IMG/VR virus record: IMGVR_UViG_3300037421_000023
Coordinates: 1 to 21,869 of that record
Direction: 5' to 3' (one strand)
Length of the DNA stretch: 21,869 bases
Source: a virus
Positions 2,816 to 16,451 of the stretch are shown in pieces. The translations under genes were made by a program, and so were the position numbers. The first letter of the stretch is position 1; each line of letters begins with the position of its first letter. The notes beneath the pieces are model-generated. The model worked only from the letters and a program-made list of their open reading frames with translations. It did no database searches and was not told the DNA's origin.

Positions 2816-3292
2816 ATGGCTGAGATATCTGGAATCTCCTGGACTGACGCCACTTCAGCGACAGCGAGACGGTCTGGACCACCGCCTCTTCCCTCTCGGG
2901 ACGGCGATAAGAAACAGGCCAGACAGCGGATCAACGTGGAGGTGAGGACTGGTCGTCGGCCGCATCCTAATTCATTGGCGTGCGTCCAATGTGGACACAC
3001 TTGGCAGCCGGGAGAGCGGCGGCACGAGTACGACCATCATCTCGGTTACGCAGCTGAGCATCATTATGAAGTGCAACCGCTTTGTACGCGTTGTCACACA
3101 GCGAAGGATAGCGAGAAGGCCCAACGGACTCATTGCATCAAAGGGCATGAGTTCACATTGGAGAATACCGGCAGAAAGCCAAACGGCACGAGGTTTTGTC
3201 GAACGTGTCACAGAGAGTTCGATAAAAGCCGCCGGAATGCCGAATTTTGGCGCGCGTATCGACTAACCAGGAAGGGCAAACCAAGTGGGTGA
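2816..3292 (+). CDS. HNH homing endonuclease with second zinc module (158 aa)
   Basis: A free-standing phage HNH endonuclease. The start at 2816 has GAGGAA at 2804-2809. Residues 46-95 hold the nuclease: Cys56-x-x-Cys59, then HEYDHHLGY (catalytic His around 74-75), then Cys90-x-x-Cys93-His94, the treble-clef fold with structural zinc. Residues 107-131 add a module seen in many phage HNH proteins: CIKGHEFTLENT...PNGTRFCRTC, with Cys107, Cys128 and Cys131. Residues 2-13 (AEISGISWTDAT) do not belong to the nuclease. They match the start of the next gene's product (TEISWSDAT), so the gene appears fused to a captured start of its neighbour. It overlaps that gene by eight bases. Expected role: nicking or cutting intronless DNA to spread itself. 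Confidence 0.88.
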   Translation: MAEISGISWTDATSATARRSGPPPLPSRDGDKKQARQRINVEVRTGRRPHPNSLACVQCGHTWQPGERRHEYDHHLGYAAEHHYEVQPLCTRCHTAKDSEKAQRTHCIKGHEFTLENTGRKPNGTRFCRTCHREFDKSRRNAEFWRAYRLTRKGKPSG

Positions 3293-4019
3293 AAGAACCG
3301 AAATAAGCTGGTCGGACGCTACTTTCAATCCGTTTATTGGGTGTAGTAAGGTAAGTCCGGCGTGCGATAATTGTTATGCGGAGCGTCTTGCCACGCGGTA
3401 TGGGTGGGCGAAATGGGGCGCGGGCCAAGCGCGCCGGCGTACATCAGCGGCAAATTGGCGCACACCTTTGGCCTGGAACCGCAAGGCGGCTGAGACTGGC
3501 CATCGGACGCGGGTGTTCTGTGCGTCTCTCGCCGATGTATTCGACAATGAGGTTGAGCAGGCGTGGCGGGACGATCTCTGGCAACTGCTGCGAGACACCC
3601 CGAACCTGCGTTGGATGTTGCTGACGAAGCGAATCGGCAACGCACCGAAGATGCTGCCGCCTGATTGGCCTTTCGCTAACGCCGGGCTGATGGCGACGCT
3701 GGCGACGCAAGCCGAATGGGATCGCGACTTTCACAAGCTGATGGCGATTCCGGCAGCGTGGCATGGTGTATCGGCTGAGCCTCTATTGGGCAGCATCGAT
3801 ATCGGCGAAGCTCGGCCCGATTGGATCATCACGGGAGGCGAGAGCGGCGCCGGGTTTCGACCGCTAGATATGAATGCCGTTCGTTTCCTTCGGGATCAAT
3901 GCGCACGTAATGGCGTCACTTTTCACCACAAACAGAATGGTGGGGTGCGTGGCAAAGACGCTGGCTGCCTGGTGGATGGCATCGAGCACAAGCATTTTCC
4001 GCTCGCTTTGGCCGCTTGA
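3285..4019 (+). CDS. Phage Gp37/Gp68-like protein (DUF5131 family), three-Cys motif (244 aa)
   Basis: GTG start at 3285 with AGGAAGGG at 3269-3276. The N-terminus TEISWSDATFNPFIGC followed by SKVSPACDNCYAE is the signature of the Gp37/Gp68 family, with Cys20, Cys27 and Cys30, a cluster suited to a metal or Fe-S centre. Further family features are RRRTSAANWRTPLAWNR, VFCASLADVFD, WMLLTKR, GVSAEPLLG, and WIITGGESGAGFRPL. The cysteines and the TIM-barrel-like succession of motifs have led to suggestions of radical-SAM-like chemistry, but the substrate is not established as far as I know. The protein appears full length. It lies between the HNH gene and a second RHH gene in the accessory operon. 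Confidence 0.9.
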   Translation: MGERTEISWSDATFNPFIGCSKVSPACDNCYAERLATRYGWAKWGAGQARRRTSAANWRTPLAWNRKAAETGHRTRVFCASLADVFDNEVEQAWRDDLWQLLRDTPNLRWMLLTKRIGNAPKMLPPDWPFANAGLMATLATQAEWDRDFHKLMAIPAAWHGVSAEPLLGSIDIGEARPDWIITGGESGAGFRPLDMNAVRFLRDQCARNGVTFHHKQNGGVRGKDAGCLVDGIEHKHFPLALAA

Positions 4020-9304: not shown

Positions 9305-9358
9305 TAAGGCTTGCTGTATCGCGTGAACCAAGGCTAGATCGAGGGTAGGAGAGTGATC

Positions 9359-9544
9359 ATGACCGACGCGGAGTTTCAAAAAGACCTGGCGACCACGGCC
9401 CTCCCTCGTGGAACCAGGTGGCGGGAAGGGCCGGAAGCTCTGATTGCCGAGCATCGAGAGTATGACGCGGCCAGGTTGCGTCTCTGGGCCGATCGTCAAC
9501 GGCATTTCGCGGCGAAGGCCAGAGAGGCGCGGGCTGCATCATGA
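9359..9544 (+). CDS. Small hypothetical protein (61 aa)
   Basis: The ATG at 9359 has AGGAGAG six bases upstream; a GTG at 9353 lies within that site. The product is short, charged and helical (MTDAEFQKDLATTALPRGTR, then EYDAARLRLWADRQRHFAAK). It starts a run of seven small genes between terminase and portal, a common position for head-completion or accessory proteins in this kind of phage. No domain recognised. Confidence 0.72.
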   Translation: MTDAEFQKDLATTALPRGTRWREGPEALIAEHREYDAARLRLWADRQRHFAAKAREARAAS

Positions 9545-9741
9545 CCGATGCGCAACGGGGTGCCCTCGACAAGATGACCGGTGCGAGTTGGCGCGAGGTT
9601 GAGGTTGGCACGCTTCTGGTCACGCCGATGGCTGGCGCGTCATTCCTGCTTGGACCGGACGGTCGGCGCGACGCGCTTTCCGTTCAGCGGGTGTACCAAC
9701 CCAATGAAGCTGGCCGCATGATCGTCGAGGCGCCTCCCTGA
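9541..9741 (+). CDS. Small hypothetical protein (66 aa)
   Basis: ATGA overlap with the previous gene. The product is compact and beta-rich: ASWREVEVGTLLVTPMAGAS, FLLGPDGRRDALSVQRVY. The next gene follows its stop with no spacing. No known family. Confidence 0.68.
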   Translation: MTDAQRGALDKMTGASWREVEVGTLLVTPMAGASFLLGPDGRRDALSVQRVYQPNEAGRMIVEAPP

Positions 9742-9981
9742 ATGGGCGCGATGTGGGCCAACCAGTCCGCCGGCCAGTGGGGCGCGCAATCACCCTTCGT
9801 GAAGACGATCGCGGGTGAGATGGGGGAGGTGCCTCTCGTTGGCCGTGGTGTGACGCTTCCCGCTCCGCCGCCTGCGCTGGCATCGGTAGCACCGGCTTCA
9901 CCGTCGGTCGCGCCGGCTGGGACAAACGCCTTCGCCGCCGCGTTTGGGCCTGCCACGCAGGGCAAGAGTCTGTTAGGATGA
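9742..9981 (+). CDS. Small Ala/Pro-rich protein ending in SLLG (79 aa)
   Basis: The start directly follows the previous stop. The protein has a Trp/Gln-rich N-terminus (MGAMWANQSAGQWGAQSPFV), a low-complexity Ala/Pro middle and the C-terminus ATQGKSLLG. The same kind of end (ATRSLLG) occurs in the gene at 10426. Short Pro/Ala-rich proteins with a conserved (K/R)SLLG end are, from memory, frequent between terminase and portal genes of environmental podoviruses. The shared tail suggests binding to a common partner, perhaps the portal or head. Function unproven. Confidence 0.68.
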   Translation: MGAMWANQSAGQWGAQSPFVKTIAGEMGEVPLVGRGVTLPAPPPALASVAPASPSVAPAGTNAFAAAFGPATQGKSLLG

Positions 9982-11223: not shown

Positions 11224-11258
11224 AGCCCGCATGCCCTTCCTGGGCGCGCGGGCTTTTT
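11224..11258 (+). terminator. Strong rho-independent terminator before the portal gene
   Basis: AGCCCGC (11224-11230) pairs with GCGGGCT (11248-11254). An inner GCCC/GGGC stem closes around a short loop, and TTTTT (11254-11258) follows. It is a textbook intrinsic terminator on the rightward strand. It would end transcripts from the terminase block and also from the promoter at 11166, unless antiterminated. The portal ribosome-binding site begins seven bases after the T run. Confidence 0.82.
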
Positions 11259-11274
11259 GGCGTCAGGAGAGTCG

Positions 11275-13176
11275 GTGTCCGGCAGCGAGCAAGTTCCTGG
11301 GGTCCAGGCCGGAACGTCGCCGCGTAACCGTCGCGCACCACGCAAGGCGCGGCAACTCCCATACGAAGGCGCTGGCCCGGAACGCCTCGCGCGGACGCCA
11401 GCGAAGGTAAAACGTCCCACTCCAGCGGGGCCGCCTGAGTGGAACGCCATCAAGCAGAACATGGAAGCCAGGATTGGACTCCTGAGAAGTTGGCGAACCA
11501 GCTGGGTACAACACTATCAGCTTCTCGAAACCTACATCCTTCCGCGCCGTGGCATCTTCATCAACACGGCGATGCCCACGCCCAACAGTATGATCCGCGG
11601 CGTACCGATCAATCAAAATATTCTCGATCCCACGGGCACTTACGCGATGCGGCGTTGCGCCGCCGGCCTGACGTCCAACGAGATGTCTCCCTCGCGCCAG
11701 TGGTTCAAGCTAAAGCCGGCGCTATCAGATCGCGAAGACGCTGACCCAGAGGCGATCGAATGGTTCGAGGAGGTCGAGGACCGCATCACCACCGTCATGT
11801 CACGGTCCAACTTCTACCAGGAGGCTGCACAGCTATTCGAGGACCTCGTGACCTTCGGAAGCGGCCCAATGATTATTTACGAAGACGAAAAGGACTTGAT
11901 CCGTTGCTACACGCCATGCTGCGGCGAGTATTTCCTCGCATCGTCATCCGCGAACCGGGTCGAGACGTTCGCGCGCATGTTCGTGATGACGATCGCGGCC
12001 ATCGTCGAGATGTTTGGGCTTGAGAACTGTCCTCCCGATGTCCAGCAGATGTGGACCGATAAGGGCGGCGCTCTTGAGGTCGAAAAGGTCGTGGCGCACA
12101 TGATTGAGCCGAACGCGCCAATCAACGCACCGAAGATCAGCGAACAGGGTGCTGTCGTAACGGGTGGCTTCGCGTGGCGCGAGGCTTACTGGGTCTGGGG
12201 CGGTGAAAGCTCTTACCCGCTGTCTCTGGCCGGGTTTCACGATCAACCCCATCTGTGTCCGCGCTGGGCCGTGACCTCCAACGATCCCTATGGCCGTTCG
12301 CCGGGGATGGACGTGCTGCCCGACATCATTCAGTTGCAGGTCGAAACAGGACGCAAGGCCGAGGCAATCGAGAAGATGGTTCGGCCGCCCATGTTGGCGT
12401 CGATCGACATGAAGAACGAACCGGCTTCGATCCTTCCCGGCAAAGTGACCTACGTCAACGGACTTGGCGCCGACAAGGGAATGCGGCCCGCGTTTACCGT
12501 CAATCCCGAGATCAAGGAGATGATGGAGGACCTGGCGCAGATACAGCAGCGGATCAGGGAAGGGTTCTTCTCGGATTTGTTCGCGATGTTGGAGCAGACG
12601 ACGAAGGATATGACGGCCTATGAAGTGGCTGCACGCAACCAGGAAAAACTCCAAATCCTCGGCCCTGTTGTTGAAAGATTGCAGAACGAATGTCTGGCTC
12701 CGGCGATTAAGCGGGTGTTCAAGATCATGGAGCGTCGCGGCGTGCTGCCGCCTCTCCCGCCAGCGTTGCACGGTGTGCCACTCGGGATTCAATATATTGG
12801 TGTTATTAGTCTCGCCGCGAAGGCCGCGAAGACGGCATCGCTTGAACGCTTCTCGAATGTGATGAATACCATGGCGCAGGTTGACCCAACGGTCATGGAC
12901 CTGTGGAGTCGGGATGCATGGACCGCTGAATATTCTGACGACTTGTTCATTTCGAAGAAGATAATGAACTCTCCCAAAAAGATCGCTCAACTTCGAGATG
13001 CGCGAGCTAAGCAGCAACAAGCTCAACAGGCACTCGCGGCAGCGCAGTCGGCATCCGAAAGCGCGAAAAACCTAGGACAGACGGATGTTGGTGGCGGAAT
13101 TTCAGCGGCAGCCGCACTAACAGGGTTTGGTGGAAGTGGTAATCTCACGACTGCACAGCCAGCAGGAACAGCGTGA
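11275..13176 (+). CDS. Head-to-tail connecting (portal) protein (633 aa)
   Basis: The podovirus portal forms the dodecameric ring through which DNA enters and leaves the head. The GTG at 11275 is chosen because AGGAGAG lies at 11265-11271; the TTG at 11257 is inside the terminator T run. After a basic, Pro-rich N-terminal extension of about 55 residues, the family pattern begins: SWRTSWVQHYQLLETYILPR, then CAAGLTSNEMSPSRQWFKLK, EDLVTFGSGPMIIYED, NDPYGRSPGMDVLPDIIQLQ, and the helical region ending with TKDMTAYEVAARNQEKLQIL and PVVERLQNECLAPAIKRVF. The C-terminus is Gln/Ala-rich with a Gly-rich end (GGISAAAALTGFGGSG). Length fits the Head-tail_con family. Its last residues are partly duplicated just downstream. 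Confidence 0.92.
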   Translation: MSGSEQVPGVQAGTSPRNRRAPRKARQLPYEGAGPERLARTPAKVKRPTPAGPPEWNAIKQNMEARIGLLRSWRTSWVQHYQLLETYILPRRGIFINTAMPTPNSMIRGVPINQNILDPTGTYAMRRCAAGLTSNEMSPSRQWFKLKPALSDREDADPEAIEWFEEVEDRITTVMSRSNFYQEAAQLFEDLVTFGSGPMIIYEDEKDLIRCYTPCCGEYFLASSSANRVETFARMFVMTIAAIVEMFGLENCPPDVQQMWTDKGGALEVEKVVAHMIEPNAPINAPKISEQGAVVTGGFAWREAYWVWGGESSYPLSLAGFHDQPHLCPRWAVTSNDPYGRSPGMDVLPDIIQLQVETGRKAEAIEKMVRPPMLASIDMKNEPASILPGKVTYVNGLGADKGMRPAFTVNPEIKEMMEDLAQIQQRIREGFFSDLFAMLEQTTKDMTAYEVAARNQEKLQILGPVVERLQNECLAPAIKRVFKIMERRGVLPPLPPALHGVPLGIQYIGVISLAAKAAKTASLERFSNVMNTMAQVDPTVMDLWSRDAWTAEYSDDLFISKKIMNSPKKIAQLRDARAKQQQAQQALAAAQSASESAKNLGQTDVGGGISAAAALTGFGGSGNLTTAQPAGTA

Positions 13177-13220: not shown

Positions 13221-15338
13221 ATGTCGCAAACGACGGGCAACACAATCGTTGGTTCTGAAATTCTGTTTGTCTCAGGCATTATCAATGGCCGTCCGAGCGA
13301 AGCCACGTTCCCGGTCACGACGGCCCAAATCGCCGGGGTCCTATCGGCCAACGGTTCTACCTCTTCGGCGGGGAACTCCGCTGTAAGCGGCTCTGGAACC
13401 GAGGCCGCGCCGTTGGTAAACGCTGACGGCACGGCTGGAATACAAACGCTGATCAGCGCGCTAACCGCTGTTCGAGGCGGCGTCGTCAATCTGGGGCCGA
13501 GCCGCTCGAATGTCTCCGCCACCACGATATTGGGAACCGATGGTATTGTCATTCAATCGCAAAGTAACGGATGGAACACAGGAACCAATGGTGAGTCGCC
13601 TGGGTCGGTCGGGCAGATTATCCGCACGACGGCGCCGCTGACTTCCGGTGTCTTTCAACTTGGTCCGACGACGCCTTCAACAACACCAGTGCGTGGCCTC
13701 GCGCTGCGAAACATCTATGCTTATGGCACTACACCGGTCGCTGGCATTGCTCCGGCTGATGGCTCGATCGGGTTGAATTTCAACAGCGCCGTGGATGGTT
13801 TCCGTTCCGAAGCGTTGATGTTCTCCGGGTTTCAGTACGGCATTTATTTCGGTGTCGGAGCCGGCAGCGGCATTCTGGCTGATGCATCGCTTCTCGCGGA
13901 TGGCGAACTGGTCGCGAACGGCTATGGTATCTTCCTCGCCAAGGGAGCGCCTGGCACGCCAGAATTGAAAATCACAAACTATGTGATTGGCGACAATGAC
14001 TACGAAGGCGTTGGTGAGTTTTCGACGAGCGGCCAGGGATGGCGGTTTGTCAACAGCGACCTTGTCAGAAACGCATCCAAACTGGCCAGTTTCACGGGCG
14101 CCATCTCCACGACGACTCTGACTGTCACTGGTCTGACTGGCGGTACGCTTGGCCCCGGCAAAATCATCTCTGGTGCCAGCGTCACCGCGAACACGATCAT
14201 CACCGCCTATGGAACCGGTACGGGCGGCAACGGTACTTACACTGTCAACAATTCTCAATCGGTAAGCGCGGAAGCCATGACCGCCGCTGGGGCCGGCCTC
14301 TACACGAATGGGGCGGCCGATCAGATCATCAACGCCTTGGTCCAGGACATGGGCCACAATGAACTCAATAATACGTTCGTCGCGGCCGATGGCATCCTTC
14401 TCGATGGCAGCAACAATGCCGTCTATGGCGGCAGGTTCACCGGCAACACCACTGGCTGGGCCATCCGGGCCACGGGTAGCAGTGAGGTTGTCAGCGGCGC
14501 GACCTTCAACGCCAATGGCCCGGTTGGTGTGACAAGCGCCACGACGGCCTCCGGCAACGCCGTGCTGCACTTTACCGCTACGCCTGTCGGCGTGGCCATC
14601 GGCGCTTACGTTACGGACTCCACGACGGGTGGTGTCATTCCTTCGGGAACGAAGGTGCAGTCAGTCACAGCGACCACCGTCACGATGAACGCCAATGCGA
14701 CGGCTGGCGGCGTGGGAAGCGGCGACACCATCCTCTTTCACCAGGATGTGAAGTTCGACACGACCTCGTCGTTTAGCCAACTTTTTTCCGTGCAGCCGGT
14801 TTATTTCGACGACGAAGGCAATTCAAACTCGGGCTTCTTCGCGGATGGCGTGACGGGCGCGTGGGTCGCGTACAATTACACCAACCCGACCATGATCGTG
14901 CGCGCTTCGAGCGGTGCTGCGTATGGTGCGGGTCTCGTATTTGATGCTGCGTTGACGGCGGGCGGCCAGAAGTGGGACGTGTTTTCGGGTGGAGGCGGAA
15001 GTTCCGGCGCGACGGCGGGTTGTTTCTTCCTGAAAGACGAAGTGACAAATAGGATCGTCGCGCAATGGGACGTGACGACAAATCTACTGCACGCCTATTT
15101 CGGCGTGAACTCGGGTACGCCAACAGGGGCCGCGCCGAGCGCGGGCGATTTCAACGCCTCCGGAGTGTTTAAGATCAATGGTGTGAAGGTGCTTGGTGCT
15201 GCTCAGGCCGGATGGGGCACCTCATCGAACGGGACGCGCGCCGCGATCAACGGTTCGACCGCGACGGCGGCACAGGTCGCTGCTGGTTTGGCACAATTGC
15301 TGATTGACCTGACCTCACAAGGAATTCTCGCGACATGA
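13221..15338 (+). CDS. Beta-helix tail spike / tail fibre protein (705 aa)
   Basis: Gly/Ser/Thr-rich throughout. Residues about 60-260 and 355-440 read as right-handed beta-helix rungs ([48 protein letters not shown]). A short N-terminal part may anchor it to the particle. Two inserted beta modules stand out: residues 291-355 ([20 protein letters not shown] and the following [16 protein letters not shown]), a module common in phage tail proteins, and residues 436-506 ([20 protein letters not shown], ending GDTILF). The C-terminus ([36 protein letters not shown]) is a typical fibre end. It probably binds or degrades a host surface glycan. No catalytic residues can be assigned from sequence. 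Confidence 0.8.
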
Positions 15339-15523
15339 CGGAAGAACGCGCTCATCCGGAGATCGTCGCGCTTCGCAGCGCGTTATCCGATGCAATGACG
15401 CGGGAAATGAACCTGAGAATGCAACTCGTGTCGGCGCATTACGAGATCGCGGACCTGCGGGAACGATTGAAGCCCGTTGGTGACGGTGACAATGTGGTTG
15501 AATTACGAACGGATCAGGCGTGA
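15335..15523 (+). CDS. Small coiled-coil protein (62 aa)
   Basis: ATGA overlap with the spike gene. Nearly the whole protein is a heptad-rich helix ([20 protein letters not shown], then [13 protein letters not shown]). Small coiled-coil proteins encoded directly after tail spikes may be chaperones or fibre-attachment factors; that is inference. Its stop lies in TGATG with the following GIY-YIG start. Confidence 0.7.
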
Positions 15524-16183
15524 TGCCAGGCTTCTCCATGCCAAACGGAAGTCCGCGCTACCAAGACACGGCTATGATCGCCACCCTGAGAAAGCCGCGG
15601 CAAGCCTTTTCCGTTCTCGACGCTGGAATTTACGAGATCGTCCATGTGGCAAGCGGACGCCGTTATATCGGCAGTTCTCGAAACGTCAGGTACCGACTTC
15701 AGAGGCACCGCTGCGATTTGAGAGGAGGCAGGGCGAGGAGCCGTTATCTCCAAAATGTGTGGAACAAGTACGGAGAAGATGCCTTTGCTTTCCGGCAGGT
15801 GTTGGCCTGTTCTGAAGACCATCTCACGTTGTTTGAGGACATTTTGATCTCTGGATACCAGACCAGGGATAAACGATTTGGATTTAACCACCGGGTCGCG
15901 GCCGATACGAATGCGGGGATGCTCCGCGTCGTGTCGAAGACCGTCCCGGGGGTCAAGTTCGGTCGCCTTACGGCGATAGAACCAAGGGAGGTTGTCGGGA
16001 CTGACAGAAAATGGCTTTTTCGATGCGACTGCGGAAGAGAGAAAATGATCTTCGCCAATTTGGTGCGTCGAGGACGCCAGATTTCTTGTGGATGCTGGCG
16101 TCGAATAAGGAACGCCGGAGGGCTGGCCCAGGGAGTCTTCGCCTTCGACGCCCCCACCCGAGCGGCAGTTTGATGCCGGGATT
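15521..16183 (+). repeat. Imperfect direct repeat flanking the GIY-YIG insertion
   Basis: TGATGCCAGGCTT at 15521-15533 and TGATGCCGGGATT at 16171-16183 match in 11 of 13 bases, and the similarity continues at the protein level (MPGF....G.P...D). Removing 15521-16170 would leave one TGATG joint and an intact small gene. The endonuclease therefore looks like a roughly 650-base insertion that kept a copy of the gene start on each side. Confidence 0.55.
15523..16173 (+). CDS. GIY-YIG homing endonuclease with Cys-rich DNA-binding module (216 aa)
   Basis: ATG at 15523 in TGATG with the previous stop; a GTG at 15520 is adjacent. Residues 35-37 (GIY) and 48-50 (YIG), Arg54 and Glu105 (LFEDILI) give the GIY-YIG nuclease core. 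Residues 144-191 (VKFGRLTAIEPREVVGTD, WLFRCDCGREK, RGRQISCGC) are a Cys-containing module (168, 170, 189, 191) found in many phage homing endonucleases and probably binding zinc and DNA. The first 17 residues ([15 protein letters not shown] and following) are not nuclease. They resemble the start of the next gene's product (MPGFFVAQGRPGFVD), as in the HNH gene at 2816. Expected role: cutting an uninterrupted homologous site to spread. Confidence 0.87.
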   Translation: MPGFSMPNGSPRYQDTAMIATLRKPRQAFSVLDAGIYEIVHVASGRRYIGSSRNVRYRLQRHRCDLRGGRARSRYLQNVWNKYGEDAFAFRQVLACSEDHLTLFEDILISGYQTRDKRFGFNHRVAADTNAGMLRVVSKTVPGVKFGRLTAIEPREVVGTDRKWLFRCDCGREKMIFANLVRRGRQISCGCWRRIRNAGGLAQGVFAFDAPTRAAV

Positions 16184-16451
16184 TTTTGTAGCTCAGGGTC
16201 GTCCGGGGTTCGTTGACACCGGCCAAGGAGCATCTGGCCGAATCGCCTCATGGGGCGCCTGGACTGCTGATCCCAACCCGCTCGCCGGCCCGGAACAGAC
16301 CCGCATTCTTCGTGAGGACGACAACGGCGCGTTAATGGGTGGGCCAACCGTGCCGCTTGGGCAAGGCGGGTGTGGCCAGTGGGGAGTGATACTTGACGGA
16401 TCATCGAACGGGGCCACCAGCGGCGGGGACAACCCCTTTGTCCTGGGTTAA
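16173..16451 (+). CDS. Small hypothetical protein, target of the GIY-YIG insertion (92 aa)
   Basis: The ATG at 16173 overlaps the GIY-YIG stop as TGATG. The product begins MPGFFVAQGRPGFVDTGQGA, is rich in Gly, Pro and Trp (WGAWTADPNPLAGPEQTRIL), and ends GGDNPFVLG. From memory, short phage proteins with an MPGF start and a W...NPLAGP core occur in tail regions. It overlaps the next gene by 14 bases. No enzymatic motif. Probably a small structural or assembly protein. Confidence 0.7.
   Translation: MPGFFVAQGRPGFVDTGQGASGRIASWGAWTADPNPLAGPEQTRILREDDNGALMGGPTVPLGQGGCGQWGVILDGSSNGATSGGDNPFVLG

Follow-up and report, generated by a model that had tools for sequence, protein, structure and literature searches.

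How can a free-standing homing endonuclease gene lie between two overlapping phage genes, and why do its first codons resemble the start of the gene that follows it? The question is raised by a GIY-YIG gene in a 21,869-nucleotide stretch of viral DNA (IMG/VR record IMGVR_UViG_3300037421_000023, positions 1 to 21,869), which we call the window.

The GIY-YIG gene and its joints

The open reading frame of the GIY-YIG endonuclease (15523-16173, 216 amino acids) has a small coiled-coil gene on its upstream side and a gene of 92 codons (16173-16451) on its downstream side. The features of the locus are:

15335-15523, + strand: upstream small gene, 62 amino acids, coiled-coil-like; its stop overlaps the endonuclease start as TGATG
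15523-15573, + strand: head of 17 codons, foreign to the endonuclease and derived from an MPGF-family gene start; the orthologue in contig L002 is without it
15574-16173, + strand: remainder of the GIY-YIG homing endonuclease, presumed native, with the GIY-YIG domain at residues 35-113 of the reading frame and a Cys-rich, DNA-binding-like region at residues 133-196
16171-16175, + strand: TGATG stop/start overlap to the downstream gene
16173-16451, + strand: downstream "MPGF" gene, 92 amino acids, of a rare phage family found in two other lineages (L002 and L035)

The GIY-YIG domain matches Pfam PF01541 with 30.6 bits (cut-off 22.6), and the reading frame matches PHROG homing endonuclease families 7168, 314, 5123 and 374. 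Its Cys-rich residues 133-196 align with a region of PHROG 374, an HNH endonuclease (7e-12), and the cysteine pairs of this predicted DNA-binding-like region are conserved between the window protein and its orthologue in L002. No split gene was seen around the reading frame. Judging from its sequence, the gene is of a known kind, the free-standing homing endonucleases. A family match was also looked for with the upstream 62-residue coiled-coil-like protein, and none was found.

Both neighbours overlap the endonuclease frame by a single base, in each case within a TGATG, and the two ends of the gene carry TGATGCCAGG (15521-15530) and TGATGCCGGG (16171-16180). A first-pass annotation of this DNA had reported TGATGCC(A/G)GG at either end, and a seamless joint once 15521-16170 is deleted. 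Both observations hold, with coordinates right to within a few nucleotides; after the deletion, a TGATG links the coiled-coil gene to the MPGF gene.

Origin of the N-terminal head

The first 17 codons of the GIY-YIG gene resemble the start of the downstream gene, MPGFFVAQGRPGFVDT. In an ungapped alignment anchored at the two start codons, the proteins agree at 8 of 16 residues and the DNA at 29 of 51 nucleotides, which bears out the pattern MPGF....G.P...DT proposed earlier as common to both. The start-anchored BLOSUM62 score of the pair is 44. In a background set drawn from the window and from other loci (20,706 pairs of gene starts), only three pairs reach this score, and each of them consists of homologous genes; a chance likeness is therefore very unlikely.

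The head does not belong to the endonuclease by descent. An orthologue with 57% identity, at the same site in another phage (L002, of which L003 is a second contig with the same sequence), starts MVSISSLATGGRPLDVGVYE and has no MPGF head, and the distant relatives in L005 and L006 begin at the GIY motif itself (MNTGIYEIVN in L005). The condition under which the first-pass annotation would have withdrawn its proposal, a head native to this GIY-YIG family, is thus contradicted by orthologue and distant relatives alike. The ATG at codon 18 (15574) lies 17 residues ahead of the GIY motif, and the start of the L002 orthologue lies 16 residues ahead of it; this ATG is likely the native start of the endonuclease. 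Since it sits about where the L002 protein begins, the head probably consists of 17 codons joined to that native start. On this comparison of orthologues, the head is foreign and comes from the family of the downstream gene.

Searches of Pfam, PHROGs and named phages gave no match to the 92-residue MPGF protein. Besides the window, the family is known from L002, where the gene starts VASFLAFPPAANAPRFVDTGQGASGR and a GIY-YIG orthologue lies upstream, and from L035, where it starts MPGGFTFPTIDALTPRFVDLGQGARGR (MPGGFTFP....LTPRFVD) behind an HNH-type endonuclease. The motif PR[FY] in the head of the window endonuclease recurs in L035 and L002, and its F.P in L035; neither is present in the MPGF gene of the window itself. 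All three known MPGF genes are directly preceded by an endonuclease gene, of two types (GIY-YIG and HNH-type). The gene further upstream is a different one at each of the three sites (a coiled-coil gene, a fibre-like gene and a portal gene), so homology on the upstream side is poor. Uninterrupted relatives were looked for in the viral contig and genome contig collections, by tblastn against phages and in about 800 genomes, and none was found; three marginal genome matches (E about 7e-4) were discounted as probably due to chance. In L035 (11227-12528) the HNH-type gene stands directly ahead of the MPGF gene, and the start of this gene looks like an insertion hot spot.

Further cases in the window and at the portal gene

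The same anatomy had been ascribed to an HNH gene elsewhere in the window, and the alignment of the two starts agrees:

2816-3292, + strand: HNH endonuclease whose head, MAEISGISWTDAT, echoes the DUF5131 start (score 41; 26 of 39 nucleotides)
3285-4019, + strand: DUF5131 (Gp37/Gp68) gene that follows the HNH gene and starts VGERTEISWSDAT (Pfam PF07505, 217.7 bits)

DUF5131 genes in two other phages start MGTDTAIEWTDHTFNP and MAIESKIEWTDATFNP.

The anatomy is seen most clearly in a related phage (L044), in which an HNH gene (9330-9977) starting MSDTNVGYGVAR is followed through a TGATG joint by a portal gene starting MSDTNVGYGAAR; head and portal start are alike at 30 of 39 nucleotides. An orthologue of this HNH protein in L043 (68% identical), also ahead of a portal gene, starts MKSAAQ and is without the head.

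In all three cases, codons for conserved residues often differ only silently between the head and the downstream start: five of eight for the window GIY-YIG gene, four of seven for the HNH gene and DUF5131, and four of 11 in L044. For this reason the heads look like diverged alleles, probably of different phages, and not like a fresh duplication. The first-pass annotation had spoken of a start duplicated upon insertion; the origin of the head in the downstream gene family stands, and plain duplication is not supported.

The HNH endonuclease at the portal gene start of L043 (1495-2200) forms a clean empty/occupied pair with L041 and L042, in which there is no insert and the upstream gene runs straight into the portal gene. 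The upstream flank of L043 is 99-100% identical to that of L042 as far as the start codon, and the endonuclease comes next. Behind it, the portal gene has about 110 nucleotides at 65-75% identity, followed by sequence at 95-100%. Because these first 110 or so nucleotides are replaced, the endonuclease at the portal site comes with a 5' end of its own for the target gene, and by the same token the downstream start in the window was probably brought by the element. L041 and L042 themselves differ around nucleotides 110-180 of the portal gene, so this region recombines in any case, and exchange of another kind takes place in it as well. The two halves of the mechanism set out below come from different phages, since L043 has the replaced 5' tract and no head, and L044 has the head and no near-identical empty relative.

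The window has a portal gene of its own (11257-13176), which is epsilon15/BPP-1-like, with identity to named phages of up to about 37%, and has relatives with 62-75% identity on seven IMG/VR contigs. In L045 (11830-12500), an HNH gene carries a six-codon head, MPTEGP, ahead of its likely own ATG (MPTEGP/MEIG..), and the downstream gene starts MPAEIP; this is a possible short fourth case, its score of 24 being near background and not significant.

Weighing the explanations

Homing with replacement of the 5' end of the target gene is the best reading of these loci, and one we hold to be reasonably probable. The head is short, with half of the aligned residues matching, and this counts against it; the sequences are also metagenome contigs, which may contain assembly errors. 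An unlikely alternative is local duplication, in which the resident MPGF start was doubled in tandem at or before insertion, leaving the endonuclease between two copies of the same origin. The resulting anatomy would be the same, with TGATGCC(A/G)GG at each end. However, recent copies should be nearly identical, whereas the two starts, besides their silent differences, disagree at nine of 17 residues, and the GIY-YIG frame has stayed intact. The occupied portal-site relative, moreover, carries a 5' tract unlike that of its empty relatives, and not a copy of it.

We consider it somewhat less likely still that the endonuclease's own start resembled that of the target by chance and guided the joint by microhomology, so that no head was transferred. 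This is the likely course of events for mobC and nrdG of phage T4 (see below), but the headless orthologues of the window GIY-YIG gene and of the L044 HNH gene indicate that the head is not native, and neither of the distant relatives in L005 and L006 has an MPGF-like head. That genes joined by TGATG merely happen to have a few N-terminal residues in common seems very improbable. The match is short and the weak candidate in L045 falls near background, but the few background pairs that reach the score of the window pair are true homologues, a second strong case lies within these 22 kb, and a related phage supplies a third.

A model for entry at the 5' end

In the favoured reading, homing with 5'-end replacement, a free-standing homing endonuclease would enter by recombination at the 5' end of its target gene; cleavage near that end, the direction of movement and one-sided repair are all inferred. 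On the downstream side, repair would copy the donor's start, giving the target gene a complete new 5' end, and the downstream start now present in the window would be of donor origin. On the upstream side, donor and recipient would have little homology, and for lack of it the join would fall at the recipient's start codon or a few codons past it. A join past the start codon would keep the recipient's old start, in frame, as a head on the endonuclease, as may have happened to the GIY-YIG and HNH genes of the window and in L044; a join at the start codon would leave no head, as in L043 and possibly L002. In the window GIY-YIG gene, the 17 codons of the head would lead straight into the ATG presumed to be the endonuclease's own (15574).

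The endonuclease would thereby take over the old, translation-coupled TGATG start, and the downstream gene would be re-started via a new TGATG. TGATG overlaps permit translation by termination-reinitiation (PMC6728339); because of this, neither neighbour need lose translation, provided that the coupling operates here.

These loci suggest a route by which a selfish endonuclease with neither intron nor intein could get into coding sequence within a packed operon. It would be translated at once, and the target gene would be left whole with a changed N-terminus. A head that resembles the downstream start and is missing in orthologues could serve as a signature of recent invasions and of the gene end that was invaded. 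More tentatively, and with slightly less than even confidence, we propose that in this phage group, whose portals are epsilon15/BPP-1-like, endonucleases of unrelated families (GIY-YIG as well as HNH) have homed time and again into the first 100 or so nucleotides of the downstream gene, re-supplying its start from the donor and using the start that they displace to begin their own translation. Such elements would mirror, at the 5' end, the atp6-type elements of mitochondria, and would let coding sequence be entered without loss of function.

Relation to known systems

No earlier description of such heads, or of start replacement, was found in the openly accessible papers searched. The study of Sandegren et al. 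(2005), which lies outside that scope, reportedly deals with SegH/Hef replacing mobC/mobE.

Among the closest counterparts are the mobile open reading frames (mORFs) of fungal mitochondria, known from Allomyces atp6 and from Glomus atp6, atp9, cox2 and nad3 (PMC3630166). In these, a homing endonuclease gene brings along a foreign substitute for part of the host gene, and the native part that is displaced stays adjacent; the two are diverged alleles, of which the native one matches close relatives (PMC3630166). In the window, what look like two diverged alleles flank the endonuclease, and at the portal site a 5' tract has been replaced. mORFs, however, replace the 3' (C-terminal) part, which is displaced downstream of the endonuclease, whereas in the phage case the 5' part is affected, and the displaced start lies ahead of the endonuclease, in frame with it as a fusion. 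The window case, a 5' segment of a phage gene, accordingly falls outside a class made up of C-terminal segments of organellar genes.

The seg and mob free-standing homing endonucleases of T4-like phages are described, in the available part of a review, as promoter-less genes in intergenic or overlapping positions, with overlap-coupled translation (UAAUGA for mobE) and with cleavage in neighbouring genes (PMC2988022). Insertion in packed operons with overlaps is thus common to them and to the window; the same part of the review mentions no downstream gene start on an endonuclease, although T4 mobC does match the nrdG start, with a native Mob head. In phage ICP1, endonuclease genes mark recombination boundaries between phages, as here, and the available part of that report makes no mention of kept or replaced gene starts (PMC10448857).

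Occurrence in other phages and T4 mobC

The first-pass annotation had suggested start duplication as a recurring way in for free-standing homing endonucleases. Matching heads do recur in this phage group, with three cases, but wider generality is not supported: about 100 other endonuclease loci yielded only T4 mobC before nrdG, where the head is native. This was the one high score in a survey of 61 endonuclease loci, most of them from named phages, and in 41 HNH loci from Pseudomonadota genomes no head matched the downstream start. In this sample, the head pattern recurs within the phage group and is rare outside it.

T4 mobC and nrdG (L143; NC_000866.4, 42600-44600) have their first seven residues, MNYDRIY, in common. 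MNY and a similar stretch behind it are native to Mob-type HNH enzymes (L131, L132 and L135-L137), so mobC was dropped as proof of a rule; it is probably a joint at a chance resemblance, as far as the related sequences tell. Because its head proved native, orthologues must be checked before such a head is taken as foreign. Co-conversion at T4 nrdG was likewise dropped, as divergence extends past the first 120 nucleotides. In F1, RB69 and RB51, which have no mobC, nrdD runs straight into nrdG, and 195-199 of the last 200 nucleotides of nrdD are unchanged.
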